In this document: positions 40,026-45,136 of the stretch, piece after piece
Position numbering within the stretch: the first letter of the stretch is position 1
How the letters are laid out: every line of letters starts with the position of its first letter
Assembly (NCBI GenBank): GCA_944354265.1
Contig: CALVPX010000002.1
Span: 22,944 to 86,943, forward strand
Source of the DNA: an uncultured Clostridia bacterium
GTDB lineage: Bacteria; Bacillota; Clostridia; Christensenellales; Borkfalkiaceae
Length of the DNA: 64,000 nucleotides
Reading direction: 5' to 3'
Translations under genes and position numbers: made by a program
Notes under the pieces: generated by a model
What the model saw: only the letters and a program-made list of their open reading frames with translations
The model's database searches: none
Told to the model about the DNA's origin: nothing

Positions 40026-40070
40026 GCGCACAATTTTTGTGAATAAATAATTTACGTTGCAAGGCGAATT
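40026..40070 (+). repeat. 5' fragment of the structured element
   Basis: GCGCACAATTTTTGTGAA, then AATAATTTACGTTGCAAGG. This matches the text before and at the start of copy B (43094-43137: ACTTTTGTGAAC, AATAATTAACGTCGCAAGG), so a truncated copy seems to precede copy A. Confidence 0.6.
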
Positions 40071-40181: not shown

Positions 40182-40369
40182 AAATAATTAACGTTTTAAC
40201 CCGAAACCACGCTTTCGGGTTAAAGGACACAATTTGTTGCGCAAGCAACCTCAGCTGAGGGGAATTTGCGCGATTATATAATACGAGTGCCCTAAGGCAT
40301 CGCGCAAAGGGGAGCGGAGCTCCCCCGATTACACAAAATTGTTGTGCGACGCCAGCACACAATTTTTGT
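40182..40369 (+). repeat. Structured intergenic element, copy A (about 188 nt)
   Basis: Six blocks in order. (1) A 12-bp stem TTTAACCCGAAA/TTTCGGGTTAAA (40195-40224). (2) GTTGC-GCAA-GCAAC (40236-40249), a GNRA tetraloop. (3) The conserved block CTCAGCTGAGGGGAATTT (40250-40267). (4) A 10-bp stem TTTGCGCGAT/ATCGCGCAAA (40265-40308). (5) GGGGAGC-GGA-GCTCCCC (40309-40325). (6) A long bulged hairpin ending GCACACAATTTTTGT (40333-40369). All are matched at equivalent places in copy B with different bases. It ends about 14 nt before the efp ribosome-binding site. Confidence 0.8.
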
Positions 40370-40396
40370 AAAAAATTAATTTAGGAGAATAAGTAT

Positions 40397-40972
40397 ATGG
40401 CATCCATTTTAGCAGGCGACATCAGAAAGGGCGTAACTTTCGAATACAACAACAAAGGCGTTTACACCGTAACCGACTTCCAGCACGTTAAGCCCGGCAA
40501 AGGCGCCGCATTCGTCCGCGCAACGCTCAAAAACGTAGTCACAGGTCAGGTCCTCTCGGATATAACCTTCAACCCCACGACCAAGCTCGAAACCGCTCAG
40601 GTCGAAACGAGAAAGATGACCTATTCTTACACCGACGGCGAATTCTATTACTTCATGGATCCCGACACTTTCGAAATGACTACGCTCAATTACGATCAGG
40701 TTGAAGACGCCCTCAAATACATCAAGGAAAACGACCCCGTAACCATCAAATTCCTCTATGGCAACGCTTTCTCGGTTGAACCCGAAAACTTTGTAGAACT
40801 CAAAGTCATCGAGTGTGAACCGGGCGTCAAGGGCAACACCGCAACCAACGCCATGAAGAACGCCAAGGTCGAAACGGGCGCAACCATTCAGGTTCCCATG
40901 TTCATCGAAGAGGGCGAAGTCATCCGCATCGATACTCGCAGCGGCGAGTATATGTCCCGCGTAGGCAAATAA
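40397..40972 (+). CDS. efp: Elongation factor P
   Basis: Relieves ribosome stalling at polyproline stretches. The 191-residue protein has the three barrel domains expected: KOW-like N-terminal domain with the loop lysine in [12 protein letters not shown] (the modification site in other bacteria), then the central OB and C-terminal OB domain ending [14 protein letters not shown]. Strong AGGAG site. Its leader region is occupied by structured element copy A. No EF-P-modifying enzyme is in the window. Confidence 0.97.
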
Positions 40973-40982
40973 AAAAGAACCA

Positions 40983-41083
40983 TCGCGCCATGCTGTGTCA
41001 AGTTTGCGCACTCCTCGGTCATGTACTTCATTGTACACTCCCGTCGTCGCTTGCGCACTTTCCTTGCCTGCCGCGCGACTATT
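40983..41083. repeat. Intergenic inverted-repeat region after efp
   Basis: TCGCGC near 40983 and GCGCGA near 41073 can close a long stem, with TGTAC-TTCAT-TGTACA near 41011 at the tip and CAAG/CTTG within. It has no open frame with coding character and no T run. It looks like another dispersed palindromic repeat. Boundaries are approximate. Confidence 0.4.
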
Positions 41084-41117
41084 CTCTTTAACACACCATA
41101 TTAATATATATAGATAA

Positions 41118-41555
41118 ATGAAAGCTGTAATTCAGCGGGTCAGGCAAACTACTCTTTCGGTAGATGGCAAGCTCATCTCGTCAATCCCCTTTGGTCTCGC
41201 AGTCTATCTCGGCGTCAAAACGGGCGACGTGGAGGAGCTGTGCGCCCAAATGGCGGGCAAAATCGCACGCATGCGCATCTTTGAGGACGCCAACGGCAAA
41301 ATGAATCTGTCCGTTCAGGACGTCGGCGGCGAGGTGTTGCTCATATCTCAGTTCACTCTCTACGGCGACTGTTCGCACGGCAACCGCCCTGGCTTCACCA
41401 TGGCAGAGCGTCCCGAGCGCGCAAACCAACTCTATCAAAAGGTGGGGGAAGAACTGCGTTCTTTGGGCGTGACCGTCAAAACGGGCGTGTTTGGCGCCGA
41501 TATGAAGATCGAGCAGTTCAACGACGGTCCCGTTACAATTATTTACGAAATTTAA
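41118..41555 (+). CDS. dtd: D-aminoacyl-tRNA deacylase
   Basis: Hydrolyses D-amino acids (and glycine mischarged on tRNA-Ala) from tRNA. The 145-residue protein has MKAVIQRVRQ, the LISQFTLYGD motif (SQ-x-TLY) and the NRPGF/NDGPVTI cross-subunit Gly-cisPro region. Full length. No Shine-Dalgarno is visible and TATATA lies 7 nt before the ATG, but no good -35 is seen, so the promoter is uncertain. Confidence 0.95.
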   Translation: MKAVIQRVRQTTLSVDGKLISSIPFGLAVYLGVKTGDVEELCAQMAGKIARMRIFEDANGKMNLSVQDVGGEVLLISQFTLYGDCSHGNRPGFTMAERPERANQLYQKVGEELRSLGVTVKTGVFGADMKIEQFNDGPVTIIYEI

Positions 41556-41558
41556 AAC

Positions 41559-41590
41559 GCAGGGCGAATCACTCGCCCTGCTTATTGTTG
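41559..41590 (+). terminator. dtd terminator
   Basis: A 9-bp stem (GCAGGGCGA/TCGCCCTGC) with loop ATCAC, followed by TTATTGTTGTT, which runs into the next start codon at 41593. Confidence 0.65.
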
Positions 41591-41592
41591 TT

Positions 41593-42429
41593 ATGAAAGT
41601 TTATTTCTTAGGCACAGGCGCGGCCGAAGGTGTGCCCGCCATGTTCTGCATTTGCGACTTCTGCAACTCAGTCCGTAGAATGGGGCTGCAAGAGGTGCGC
41701 ACACGCACTCAAATTCTCATCAATGACGACCTGCTGATAGATTTTCCGCCGGAGGCGTACTATCATTCCTTTGCAATGGGCGTCGACCTCTCGGCAATAA
41801 AATCGCTGCTCGTCACCCATTCGCACATGGATCACTTCTACGCGCACGATTTCATCCTACGCGGCTACAAATACGCTCAGCTCAAACAGCCCCTCTTGAA
41901 TATCTTCGGCAACGAAGAGGTCAAAAAGGTGTTCGCCGAGTGCACCGCGCGCGAAATGAAGCCGCAGGTCGCCCCGCATATAAGCTTTACGCAGCTTGAA
42001 CCCTATTCTGTCTTTGAAACTGACGGCTACAGGGTCATTGCCATTCCCGCCGAGCATGTAAAAACCGAGCAGGCCCTCTTATATTATGTAGAAAGAGGGG
42101 GCAAGGGCTATCTTCACCTGCACGACACGGGCAATGTCAGCGACGAGGCCATCGCCTTCCTCGCCCAAAACGGCGCCAAGGCAAACGCCGTCGCGTACGA
42201 CTGCACCTTCGGCAGGGACGGCGGCAATCTTTCCGCCCGCCACATGGGCATACCCGATATCGCCATCGTCCGTTCAAAACTTGCCGCCGCGGGCGTCATC
42301 AACGGCACAACGGTGGGGGTTATAACTCATTTTTCCCACAACTGCAAACCTTACCGCGCCGACATGCAAAAGCTCGCGCAGGACAACGGCCTCGTCGCCG
42401 CTTACGACGGTTTAACGCTGAATGTATGA
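41593..42429 (+). CDS. Metallo-beta-lactamase-fold hydrolase (PhnP/RNase Z-like)
   Basis: A 278-residue MBL-fold phosphodiesterase-type protein. It opens with FLGTGAAEGVPAMFCICDFC, resembling PhnP with its zinc-site cysteines (CICDFC). It carries the metal motif THSHMDHFYAHD, a later histidine in AEHVKTE, Asp in LHDTGNVSD and the C-terminal THFSHNC. The substrate is unknown; cyclic phosphate or nucleic-acid phosphodiesters are typical of the family. No ribosome-binding site is seen. It overlaps the next gene by 4 bases. Confidence 0.82.
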   Translation: MKVYFLGTGAAEGVPAMFCICDFCNSVRRMGLQEVRTRTQILINDDLLIDFPPEAYYHSFAMGVDLSAIKSLLVTHSHMDHFYAHDFILRGYKYAQLKQPLLNIFGNEEVKKVFAECTAREMKPQVAPHISFTQLEPYSVFETDGYRVIAIPAEHVKTEQALLYYVERGGKGYLHLHDTGNVSDEAIAFLAQNGAKANAVAYDCTFGRDGGNLSARHMGIPDIAIVRSKLAAAGVINGTTVGVITHFSHNCKPYRADMQKLAQDNGLVAAYDGLTLNV

Positions 42430-42953
42430 AACTTATTAAACACTTTATAACAATCACCCGCCACAGGCACAAGGTAATGCGCCTCTGCTTTAAGGTCGGG
42501 CTGTATAAGCAGGGGCTATTGCACGACCTCTCAAAATATACCCCGTCTGAATTCATCCCCGGCGTAAAGTACTTTCAGGGCAACCGCAGCCCGCAGGTGA
42601 GGGAGAGGGAGGTGTTCGGCTATTCCGCCGCTTGGCTGCACCACAAGGGTAGGAATAAACATCACTTCGAATATTGGGTAGACTCGGGCGCAGACAACAA
42701 CTTTGTCTTTGTAAAGATGCCCGCAAAATACTTCGGCGAAATGATTTGCGACCGCATCGCCGCAAGCAAGATTTATATGGGCAAGGACTACAACGACGGC
42801 AAGCCGCTCGAATACTTCAAAAACCGCACTCACAAGGCGGGCATGAACAAGCAGACTTGCCGCGACCTTGAATACTTCCTTACAATGCTTGCAGAGCACG
42901 GCGAAAAGTACATGTTTACTCAACTCAAGCGCTTCATAAAGGACAATAAATAA
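42426..42953 (+). CDS. DUF5662 family protein
   Basis: A 175-residue protein of the DUF5662 type, sometimes mislabelled catalase. Conserved His/Asp-rich segments are visible: LLHDLSKYTPSEF, AWLHHKGRNKHHFEYW and the MICDRIAASKIYMG helix. The HD-like arrangement suggests a metal-binding helical fold, but no activity is known. Coupled by ATGA to the MBL-fold gene. A strong terminator follows. Confidence 0.78.
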   Translation: MKLIKHFITITRHRHKVMRLCFKVGLYKQGLLHDLSKYTPSEFIPGVKYFQGNRSPQVREREVFGYSAAWLHHKGRNKHHFEYWVDSGADNNFVFVKMPAKYFGEMICDRIAASKIYMGKDYNDGKPLEYFKNRTHKAGMNKQTCRDLEYFLTMLAEHGEKYMFTQLKRFIKDNK

Positions 42954-43008
42954 GGAATACAATGAATTCCTTACATAATTACATAGCCATTAGTAATAGT
43001 AGTAATAA

Positions 43009-43049
43009 AAAGCCCGCGGTGAAAACAATACGTTTTCACCGCGGGCTTT
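43009..43049. terminator. Strong bidirectional terminator
   Basis: An 18-bp perfect stem (43009-43026 with 43032-43049, core AAAGCCCGCGGTGAAAAC) with a 5-nt loop. Copy B of the structured element begins about 65 nt further on. Confidence 0.85.
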
Positions 43050-43116
43050 ATGCGTGAAGTTTTGCGCGAGTGCTAAGGTTAATTAAATGCGCCGTCAAGA
43101 CTTTTGTGAACATAGA

Positions 43117-43300
43117 AATAATTAACGTCGCAAGGGGAATTCATTTCCCTGCCAGCGGCCACAATTAGTCGCGTAAGCGAGCTCACCTGAGGGGAATTTT
43201 TGCGATTAAATAATGGAGAGCCATTAAAAATCGCAAAAAGGGGAGCAGAGCTCCCTAAATCACGAAAAGTCGCAGGCGTCACCAGCCAAGACTTTTGTGA
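43117..43300 (+). repeat. Structured intergenic element, copy B (about 184 nt)
   Basis: The same order of blocks as copy A. (1) AGGGGAA/TTTCCCT (43133-43150). (2) TCGC-GTAA-GCGA (43169-43180). (3) CTCACCTGAGGGGAATTT (43182-43199). (4) An 11-bp stem TTTTTGCGATT/AATCGCAAAAA enclosing AATGG-AGAG-CCATT (43197-43239). (5) GGGAGC-AGA-GCTCCC (43241-43255). (6) TCAC-GAAAAGTC with GACTTTT-GTGA enclosing GGC/GCC (43260-43300). It lies between the DUF5662 gene and the 3' end of aspS, so unlike copy A it is not in a 5' leader. Confidence 0.8.
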
Positions 43301-43309
43301 GAGTATTTT

Positions 43310-44641
43310 TTATGGCGTAACTCTGTTTATGTCTCTCGGGAACATGGTGGCATAGCGCACGTTCTTGAATCCCAAGAGGTGCATCGTCACTCTCTCAAGA
43401 CCGATGCCAAGTCCGCCGTGGGGTGGTGCGCCGTATTTGTGCAGCATTAGGTAGGTCTCAAATTCGTCGGGGTTCATGCCAAGCCGCTTCATCTTCTCAA
43501 CCTGCATATTGTAGTCGTGTATACGCTGTCCGCCTGAAGTTATCTCCAATCCCCTGAACAGAAGGTCGAACGAAAGGGTAACTTCGGGATCTTCGGGGTC
43601 ATCCATGGTGTAGAAGGGCCTCTTTGCGCTCAGGTAGTGCGTCACGAACAGAAAGTCGGAATTATACTGCTGCTTTGCCCATTTGCCCAAAAATGCCTCT
43701 TCCTCGGGTTCGAAGTCCTTCATGTCTGTTATGTTCTTGAGCTTTTTAATGCAAAGTTCCTTGGCGTCCTTAAAGCGTATGCAGGGGATAGATTTAATTT
43801 CGGGAATATCCACCTTCAAAAGTTCAACTTCGGGCGCGTACTCGGTCTTGAGCAGGTTCATAATATACTGCAATGCGCCCGTCTCCATGTTCATTATGTC
43901 CGTAAAATCTTCAATAAATCCCATTTCAAAGTCCATTGAAATGTATTCGTTGAGGTGGCGGGAGGTATCGTGGTGCTCCGCTCTGAAAACGGGACCTATT
44001 TCAAACACCCTCTCAAATACGGGCACAAGCGCCTGTTTGTATAGCTGAGGGCTCTGCGCAAGGTATACGGTTTTGCCGAAGTAGTCAAGCTTGAACACGT
44101 TGGTTCCGCCCTCGGCACCGGCAAAATTTATCTTGGGGGTATGAACTTCCGTGAAATTCTGACTTGTAAGGAATTCACGGAATCCGCGCTGAATACCTTC
44201 CTGAATCTTGAATATTGCCCTCTCCTTGGGGTTCCTCAAAGTAACGGGACGGAAGTCGAGGTTGGTGTTCAAATCGCAGTTTATCTGCTTTTTGGAAATT
44301 ACAACGGGGGGAATGGCGGCGGGGGTGGAGAGTATCTCAATGTTCGAAATCTGCAGTTCATATCTCTCGCTGCCGTCGCGCGTCTCGCTAGGAACAACCT
44401 TGCCCGTAACTTTGGCCGAGCACTGCTCCACAACGTCGGGCGTAAGCCTGTAGCCGGAAAATTCGGGCGAGTACACGCACTGAATAAGTTCGCGCGCCGT
44501 GCGCACCAAAATAAAAGCAAAGTCGCTCATATCTCTTATATTGTGAATAGCGCCCTTAATTGTCACCTGTTCGCCGACGTGGTTTCTGAACTGTGAATAG
44601 GGCATGCTTGTTATGGGCACGATGCCTGTCATATCTTGCAT
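43310..44641 (-). CDS. aspS: Aspartyl-tRNA synthetase, archaeal-type (possibly non-discriminating)
   Basis: A class II synthetase of 443 residues. This is the short archaeal/eukaryotic-type AspRS: an N-terminal OB anticodon domain (VTIKGAIHNIRDMSDFAFIL) followed directly by the catalytic core, with motif 2 FRAEHHDTSRHLNEYISMD and motif 3 GGLGIGLERVTMHLLG. The GAD insertion of the usual bacterial AspRS (about 590 residues) is absent. Enzymes of this type are often non-discriminating and charge tRNA-Asn with Asp for GatCAB, which would fit if no AsnRS is encoded elsewhere. AGAGGT precedes the ATG. Confidence 0.92.
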   Translation of the reverse strand: MQDMTGIVPITSMPYSQFRNHVGEQVTIKGAIHNIRDMSDFAFILVRTARELIQCVYSPEFSGYRLTPDVVEQCSAKVTGKVVPSETRDGSERYELQISNIEILSTPAAIPPVVISKKQINCDLNTNLDFRPVTLRNPKERAIFKIQEGIQRGFREFLTSQNFTEVHTPKINFAGAEGGTNVFKLDYFGKTVYLAQSPQLYKQALVPVFERVFEIGPVFRAEHHDTSRHLNEYISMDFEMGFIEDFTDIMNMETGALQYIMNLLKTEYAPEVELLKVDIPEIKSIPCIRFKDAKELCIKKLKNITDMKDFEPEEEAFLGKWAKQQYNSDFLFVTHYLSAKRPFYTMDDPEDPEVTLSFDLLFRGLEITSGGQRIHDYNMQVEKMKRLGMNPDEFETYLMLHKYGAPPHGGLGIGLERVTMHLLGFKNVRYATMFPRDINRVTP

Positions 44642-44922: not shown

Positions 44923-44965
44923 TTTCCGCTTCAGCGGCAAAATTTCAAAAAATAAATCCGCTTAT
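44923..44965 (-). repeat. A/T-rich repeat with CCGC hairpin, copy 2
   Basis: On the + strand: TTTCCGC-TTCA-GCGG, then AAAATTTCAAAAAATAAATC and CGCTTAT. See the copy at 44807. Confidence 0.65.
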
Positions 44966-44976
44966 GCCGTGTTATG

Positions 44977-45136
44977 AAAAAGTATTAACCCGCTTCTCGC
45001 AGGTGGGTGCGCCGAAGCGGAAATTATTCGGACTTTCCGTATATAATACAGACCTTGCCTATTCCCGCGAACAAAACGCTCCCGTAAATTATCTGTGGAT
45101 TACGAATTTCCCATACCACGCACACAGCAGACTTAA
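44977..45136 (-). ncRNA. Candidate small RNA (6S-like) upstream of aspS
   Basis: A consensus-like minus-strand promoter precedes about 160 nt without a convincing ORF, ending at a run of five T. The RNA can form a rod. UUAA at both ends pairs, then UCU/AGA and GUGUGC/GCGCAC. GGAAAUU pairs with AAUUUCC across a bulged middle, and ACAGA with UCUGU near the tip. A long bulged rod beside aspS recalls the 6S RNA of Bacillus, which I remember as lying next to aspS. I cannot confirm the 6S consensus by eye, so the class is a suggestion only. Confidence 0.45.

Follow-up and report, generated by a model that had tools for sequence, protein, structure and literature searches.

The attC sites of integrons are folded strands with an extrahelical base, built of an R box with an AAC...GTT core, a spacer and an L box, and they are found near stop codons and in arrays. 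The element described here resembles them in its folding, its extrahelical base, its proximity to stop codons and its arrays, and one class of copies ends in TAAC...GTTA. However, its stem consists of 4 bp plus one bulge without R, spacer and L boxes, and the TCAC...GTGA class lacks the GTT core. With one class ending in GTGA and a stem of 4 bp plus a bulge, the element does not qualify as an integron attC site.

Several other small intergenic repeats are comparable. In the portions of the BOX report used here, BOX of Streptococcus pneumoniae is a dispersed intergenic multi-stem repeat, clustered or nested with other repeats, which supplies the stop codon at its extreme 3′ end in 36 of 58 overlapping genes (PMC3049150). 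According to the excerpted review text, REPs are single palindromes of 20–40 bp tagged GTAG or CGTC, and MITEs (ERIC, RUP, Correia and bcr1) carry terminal inverted repeats of 15–30 bp and a target duplication (PMC3733652). The present element is a dispersed structured repeat of the BOX/ERIC/REP kind and, by the description in those portions, is closest in style to BOX, with which it shares a dispersed, intergenic, multi-stem nature and clustered and nested repeats (PMC3049150). Compared by description, it differs from BOX in that it belongs to another lineage, no boxA/B/C number variation was seen, and its right end lies at stop codons and Shine-Dalgarno sequences. As far as the excerpted review goes, it shares with REP/BIME sequences and their RAYTs covarying hairpins at gene ends and a presumed mobilisation in trans, but it has 185 nt and six hairpins, and Y1 genes do not track its copy number; like the MITEs it is small, non-coding, dispersed and folded, but it has neither terminal inverted repeats of 15–30 bp nor a clear target duplication (PMC3733652). 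It is thus distinct in having no long inverted-repeat ends, no clear target duplication and a polar attachment to gene starts and stops. The element family was described in none of the titles or abstract starts of the open-access literature searched.

Two full copies, A and B, are the only ones in the window, a stretch of 64,000 nucleotides from an uncultured Clostridia bacterium, and both lie where the initial annotation had placed them, with stems as it had written them. Its fold of five hairpins plus a near-invariant block stands as to the hairpins, but their number becomes six: the block forms a weak hairpin 3, and there is an extra stem GGGGAGC/GCTCCCC. The features are as follows (window coordinates).

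40035..40070, + strand: left-end remnant of another copy, left of copy A (blastn match to B 6-45, in L012)
40183..40372, + strand: copy A, full element upstream of efp (start codon 40397); C2:63126-63315 in contig coordinates (covariance model match of 152.9 bits, sequence reading)
40194..40225, + strand: copy A hairpin 1, an unusual, replaced stem (folding, alignment)
40237..40248, + strand: copy A hairpin 2 (sequence reading, alignment, covariation)
40265..40308, + strand: copy A hairpin 4, with the conserved TTATATAA loop (sequence reading, alignment, covariation)
40309..40325, + strand: copy A hairpin 5 (sequence reading, folding)
40329..40371, + strand: copy A terminal hairpin 6 (sequence reading, alignment, terminal-hairpin survey)
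43099..43111, + strand: remains of an older terminal hairpin (its 3′ half) to the left of copy B, with the letters of B's right end (sequence reading)
43117..43301, + strand: copy B, full element; C2:66060-66244 in contig coordinates (covariance model match of 194 bits)
43127..43159, + strand: copy B hairpin 1, outer and inner stem (folding)
43169..43180, + strand: copy B hairpin 2 (folding)
43182..43191, + strand: copy B weak hairpin 3, in the near-invariant block (folding)
43197..43239, + strand: copy B hairpin 4 (folding)
43240..43256, + strand: copy B hairpin 5 (folding)
43260..43300, + strand: copy B terminal hairpin 6, with a bulged G at 43264 (folding, terminal-hairpin survey)

Copy B has on its left a + strand gene ending at 42953 and on its right the 3′ end of asnS on the − strand, with the stop codon at 43310-43312. 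Genes were called by a purpose-made caller, whose calls around A and B are long ORFs and one false call inside the 6S gene. This 6S RNA gene (44951-45136, − strand; 58 bits, gathering score 46.4) lies beside asnS, near copy B. In agreement with the initial annotation, which had recognised no described RNA in the element, 6S was the only Rfam family to match the window at gathering score, elsewhere than A and B, and at E ≤ 5 no Rfam family matched the element in 17 loci of the same genome except for a 9-nt overlap with a sub-threshold BSnc120 match (L021). Gut-1 RNA matches were seen near copies at L005:457-567 (52 bits, above gathering) and L008:2316-2398 (32.7 bits, below).

Architecture and covariation

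The unit is approximately 185 nt long, non-coding and composed of six hairpins. From left to right it consists of the left end AAATAAWTAACG, hairpin 1 (outer stem, internal loop and inner stem), hairpin 2, the weak hairpin 3 formed by the near-invariant block, hairpin 4 with a large conserved loop, hairpin 5 and the terminal hairpin 6. Compared with 200 shuffles, RNA folding gave z scores of −5.26 for A and −5.51 for B, and DNA folding of the two strands of B gave −6.23 and −5.69. The consensus structure was derived from alignments, and the free minimum-energy fold of copy A departs from it in the middle part.

Among 17 copies of the own genome aligned by MAFFT, 93.3% of the cells of a 42-pair structure are paired, compared with 75.7 ± 1.0% after shuffling and 33.6–47.1% when the structure is slid. 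Double changes occupy 131 cells (43.1 in shuffled alignments) and occur at 32 of the 42 pairs; of five measures, four were equalled by none of 500 shuffles, and the remaining one, further pair types, was equalled by 69. Hairpin 3 is without any double change and the other five hairpins covary. A second alignment comprised 43 copies from other contigs, namely every second of 85 loci with a copy of 178–194 nt, which were found with the covariance model and aligned by MAFFT without it. Here, for a structure of 41 pairs that was predicted separately, 93.4% of cells are paired (68.4 ± 0.7% when shuffled), with 426 double-change cells against 131.4, double changes at 38 of 41 pairs, and each of the five measures reached by 0 of 500 shuffles. 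The covariation is very strong, and the structure is under selection in the element family, as had been proposed from copies A and B; the double changes and the pairing in both alignments support it. At the efp site, copy A and the orthologous copy in a relative (G054) differ by one pair-keeping double change in each of hairpins 2 and 6, and hairpin 1 is wholly different between them.

G–U cells are rare. When 125 of 145 rows were kept in an alignment fitted to the covariance model, 85 of 5090 cells were G–U, 37 were A–C and 113 were otherwise unpaired, and a small tRNA sample used as a yardstick (84 acceptor-stem cells of 12 tRNAs) contained 4 G–U and 0 A–C cells. The low G–U share fits DNA hairpins but is not decisive, given the model-fitted alignment and the small yardstick.

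Distribution of copies and signs of mobility

A covariance model was built from the 17 own-genome loci and searched against related genomes, a check that the initial annotation had put forward; 23 of 41 genomes matched, all of the own genus. Within this genus the element is present in 23 of 25 genomes (none in G008 and G012), with 0 to at least 64 matches per genome, and 0 of 16 genomes, each representing a different one of 16 further families in the order, contain it. Of 121 genomes drawn from the family, 31 match, and they fall in 5 of 18 genera. The number of candidates scored per genome was limited to 65 in the first survey and to 22 in the family draw, so that the per-genome counts are lower bounds. 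A pattern scan of genome contigs returned 98 stretches, and the 80 listed belong to Candidatus Coproplasma species and Clostridia/Clostridiales MAGs. The element family is lineage-restricted, and the repeats appear to be spread through a group of gut bacteria. The range from 0 to at least 64 copies within one genus makes the family open to comparative testing.

Copies are dispersed in the own genome (G000), where a DNA search with copy B gave 36 matches and the model, applied to 150 of 501 candidates, gave at least 68 (E ≤ 0.01), with 56 exceeding 80 bits. The copies are mostly old, with a median pairwise identity of 69% and a best of 90% among 29 of them. Tandem arrays occur as well, e.g., three units in L170 separated by linkers of 7 and 8 nt and 71% and 98% identical. 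In 16 of 23 adjacent same-strand pairs, selected by hand from the match listings, the gene-side copy scores higher (one-sided P = 0.047), which weakly hints that arrays gain their new units next to the gene.

The same positions were also compared between genomes. The pepP-efp gap holds a match in 3 of 30 loci read (G000, G054 and a decayed one in G045) and none in 27. When the right-hand flanking sequences of 24 G000 copies were searched for in four relatives, 90 matches came up; 15 of the 89 loci read there hold an element match, one of them very weak. In nine pairs, a G000 copy and a relative's copy share a gene boundary and the side on which they lie. Only in two of these (efp, 80%; dnaK, 93%) does the relative's copy match the local G000 copy best, and in seven it matches another G000 copy best; therefore, gene boundaries are used repeatedly. 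No base-exact empty site was found, since the intergenic DNA is too diverged.

We infer mobility from this distribution of copies. The reading of the element as a structured mobile repeat, offered at the outset as one of two options, gains support from the covariation, the at least 68 own-genome matches and the patchy distribution among congeners. With a probability of roughly 0.6, we regard the element as a non-autonomous, non-coding mobile DNA of ~185 nt; it does not look like a fixed RNA gene, because its copy number ranges from 0 to at least 64, it forms tandem arrays, and boundaries are common to unrelated copies.

Under the other option, selection would act on the transcript of a structured RNA present in many copies (a small RNA, leader or 3′ UTR element). 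This could explain the strong covariation and the conserved loops, and the double changes at the efp site keep pairs between the G000 and G054 orthologues, so that the structure may be kept in place. Terminator-like sites also fall inside A and B, and effects of the element on transcripts are possible. However, the copies lie in both orientations to transcription (flanking gene orientations are 53 (+,+), 58 (−,−), 14 (+,−) and 5 (−,+)), their number varies among congeners down to none, and G–U pairs are rare. The region contains 4 promoter-like sites, where 4.1 are expected, and none lies within A or B. It is therefore unlikely that a structured non-coding RNA is the primary nature of the element.

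The gap DNA of L049 (element at 1500-1687) and L209, which contains a hairpin repeat with TGTCCCTTTTTGTC ends and the element, is 98–100% identical between two species, and the adjacent gene is 86% identical. This identity probably reflects recent transfer or conversion confined to the gap.

Attachment of the right end to gene boundaries

What sets the element apart most is its polar attachment to gene boundaries of both kinds, which was beyond the view of the initial annotation. Of 141 copies, 105 have their right end at a start codon (no more than 30 nt away) or a stop codon (no more than 14 nt away), whereas the left end is so placed in 15 of 137 (10/72 and 5/65) and random gap points in 233 of 1359. 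When the gene on the right is on the + strand, 43 of 64 copies have its start codon no farther than 30 nt away, 27 of them at 7–13 nt, that is, against the Shine-Dalgarno sequence; when it is on the − strand, 62 of 77 copies have its stop codon no farther than 14 nt away, 46 of them at 0–6 nt. With the purpose-made gene caller, copies were found inside genes in 0 of 151 cases. Only 4 copies of another repeat family were usable as a control for the anchoring. The family unites a sharp, one-ended attachment at gene starts and stops with very strong covariation, seen across tens of copies in a genome.

It is rather unlikely that the copies inserted anywhere in the gaps and that the right spacer was later deleted up to the Shine-Dalgarno sequence or stop codon, with the anchoring as a by-product. 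Such deletion would account for starts and stops both serving as boundaries, for the stop codon within the element's own last bases (offset −4) in 9 of 77 copies, and for the part of the Shine-Dalgarno sequence that some copies supply. Nevertheless, it requires a one-sided deletion bias, the left end being free, and terminators persist to the left of copies such as L057 and L059. The right end is also the nearer one in 30 of 34 gaps with 30–150 free nt (P = 6×10−6). If targeting is true, there would be an integration mechanism that reads gene boundaries; if deletion or selection is responsible instead, the family would be a clean natural experiment for studying the influence of repeats on translation starts and mRNA ends.

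As a mobile DNA, the element might move as follows. An enzyme acting in trans would recognise the folded strand, probably as single-stranded DNA and chiefly by its bulged terminal hairpin, and the right end would be joined beside a gene start or stop without target duplication. New copies would tend to be added on the gene side of old ones. The folding requirement for mobilisation would keep the stems paired while the letters drift, and selection would remove copies that break a coding sequence, a Shine-Dalgarno sequence or a stop codon. The single observation pointing to a single-stranded DNA route is the small number of G–U cells, judged against the small tRNA yardstick.

Element ends and candidate enzymes

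The ends were analyzed in 151 of 174 copies, with lengths of 170–200 nt. The right end is sharp, because the information drops to background directly past GTTAA/GTGAA. In 124 of 151 copies, the terminal hairpin can be drawn as a stem whose 5′ side has a single bulged base, although the survey scored the 5′ side and a 3′-side bulge is also possible in 51 of 151. This extrahelical base is G in 113 of the 124, and four outer pairs precede it in 110. Terminal hairpins standing alone were considered as targets, which gave no lead: of the 104 terminal hairpins found, 95 are in full elements and 9 are alone, with 0 in shuffled controls. Matches of a guide-like kind between the element interior and its own flanks gave nothing in 18 tests (largest z 2.8).

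A classic MITE, mobilised by a DDE transposase, would likewise be small, non-coding, dispersed and strongly folded, but it is highly improbable here. The ends have no terminal inverted repeats of 15–30 bp: AAATAAWTAACG and GTTAA/GTGAA share at most 6 nt, TTAACG/CGTTAA, in one class only, and no pair of end positions shows a complement excess above z 2.7. There is also no clear target duplication, the largest of 1287 cells having z 3.9 (151 copies) and the comparison by length with shuffled flanks giving z 0.0–2.7 (148 copies); the slight excess of left-right matches among 5-mers (z 2.7) cannot be dismissed entirely.

The conserved-bulge hairpin, the lack of a clear target duplication and the single Y1 gene in G000 would suit a REP-like element moved by a Y1 (RAYT/IS200-type) transposase. 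However, Y1 is present in 7 of 25 genomes and was not found in the copy-rich G002, G006, G014 and G016, and this partner was rejected; the reading is very unlikely and already largely refuted, barring loss or oversight of the gene in these four draft assemblies. Because every genome used is a draft, an absent enzyme means one not found. Reverse transcriptases (PF00078; group II intron, retron) were rejected as well, with 12 of 25 genomes positive and none found in the copy-rich G002, G006 and G016, as were IS110/bridge-RNA systems (DEDD recombinase, PF01548), with 0 of 25 genomes over the cut-off and 3 weak matches. Y1, reverse transcriptase and IS110 genes do not track element copy number. 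Serine recombinases occur in 21 of 25 genomes, and none was found in G000 itself (85.9% complete). The Y2 transposase model (PF04986, IS91/ISCR) matched 0 of 25 genomes and 0 in the control genomes as well. Searches for these enzymes and for tyrosine recombinases thus identified no mobilising enzyme.

Tyrosine recombinases are present in 25 of 25 genomes. A XerS-like recombinase was read in six genomes and is the only tyrosine recombinase found in the copy-rich G002; it does not discriminate, because it is also present in the copy-free G008, and it is a candidate by availability only. Two of the XerS-like proteins matched XerS best in NCBIfam, below its cut-off. It is quite improbable, though conceivable, that the element represents a new class of mobile DNA, which would be joined as a folded single strand, right end first, to stop codons or Shine-Dalgarno sequences without target duplication, perhaps via a host recombinase of the XerS-like kind, in arrays growing on the gene side. 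The XerS-like recombinase has ~353 aa (L319:1413-2483 and L320-L324) and is possibly the genus's single chromosome-dimer recombinase; in four of the six genomes it lies beside a gene that we take to be hflX.

The own genome carries several repeat families. A further hairpin, TGCGCCNNNGGCGCA, often lies directly left of the element in a module-like manner (left flanks of L034, L043, L044, L046, L047 and L053), and other small repeats (GACGAACAACGCAC... and GACGAGCAAGG...) are nested within the element copies L010, L011, L025 and L027.
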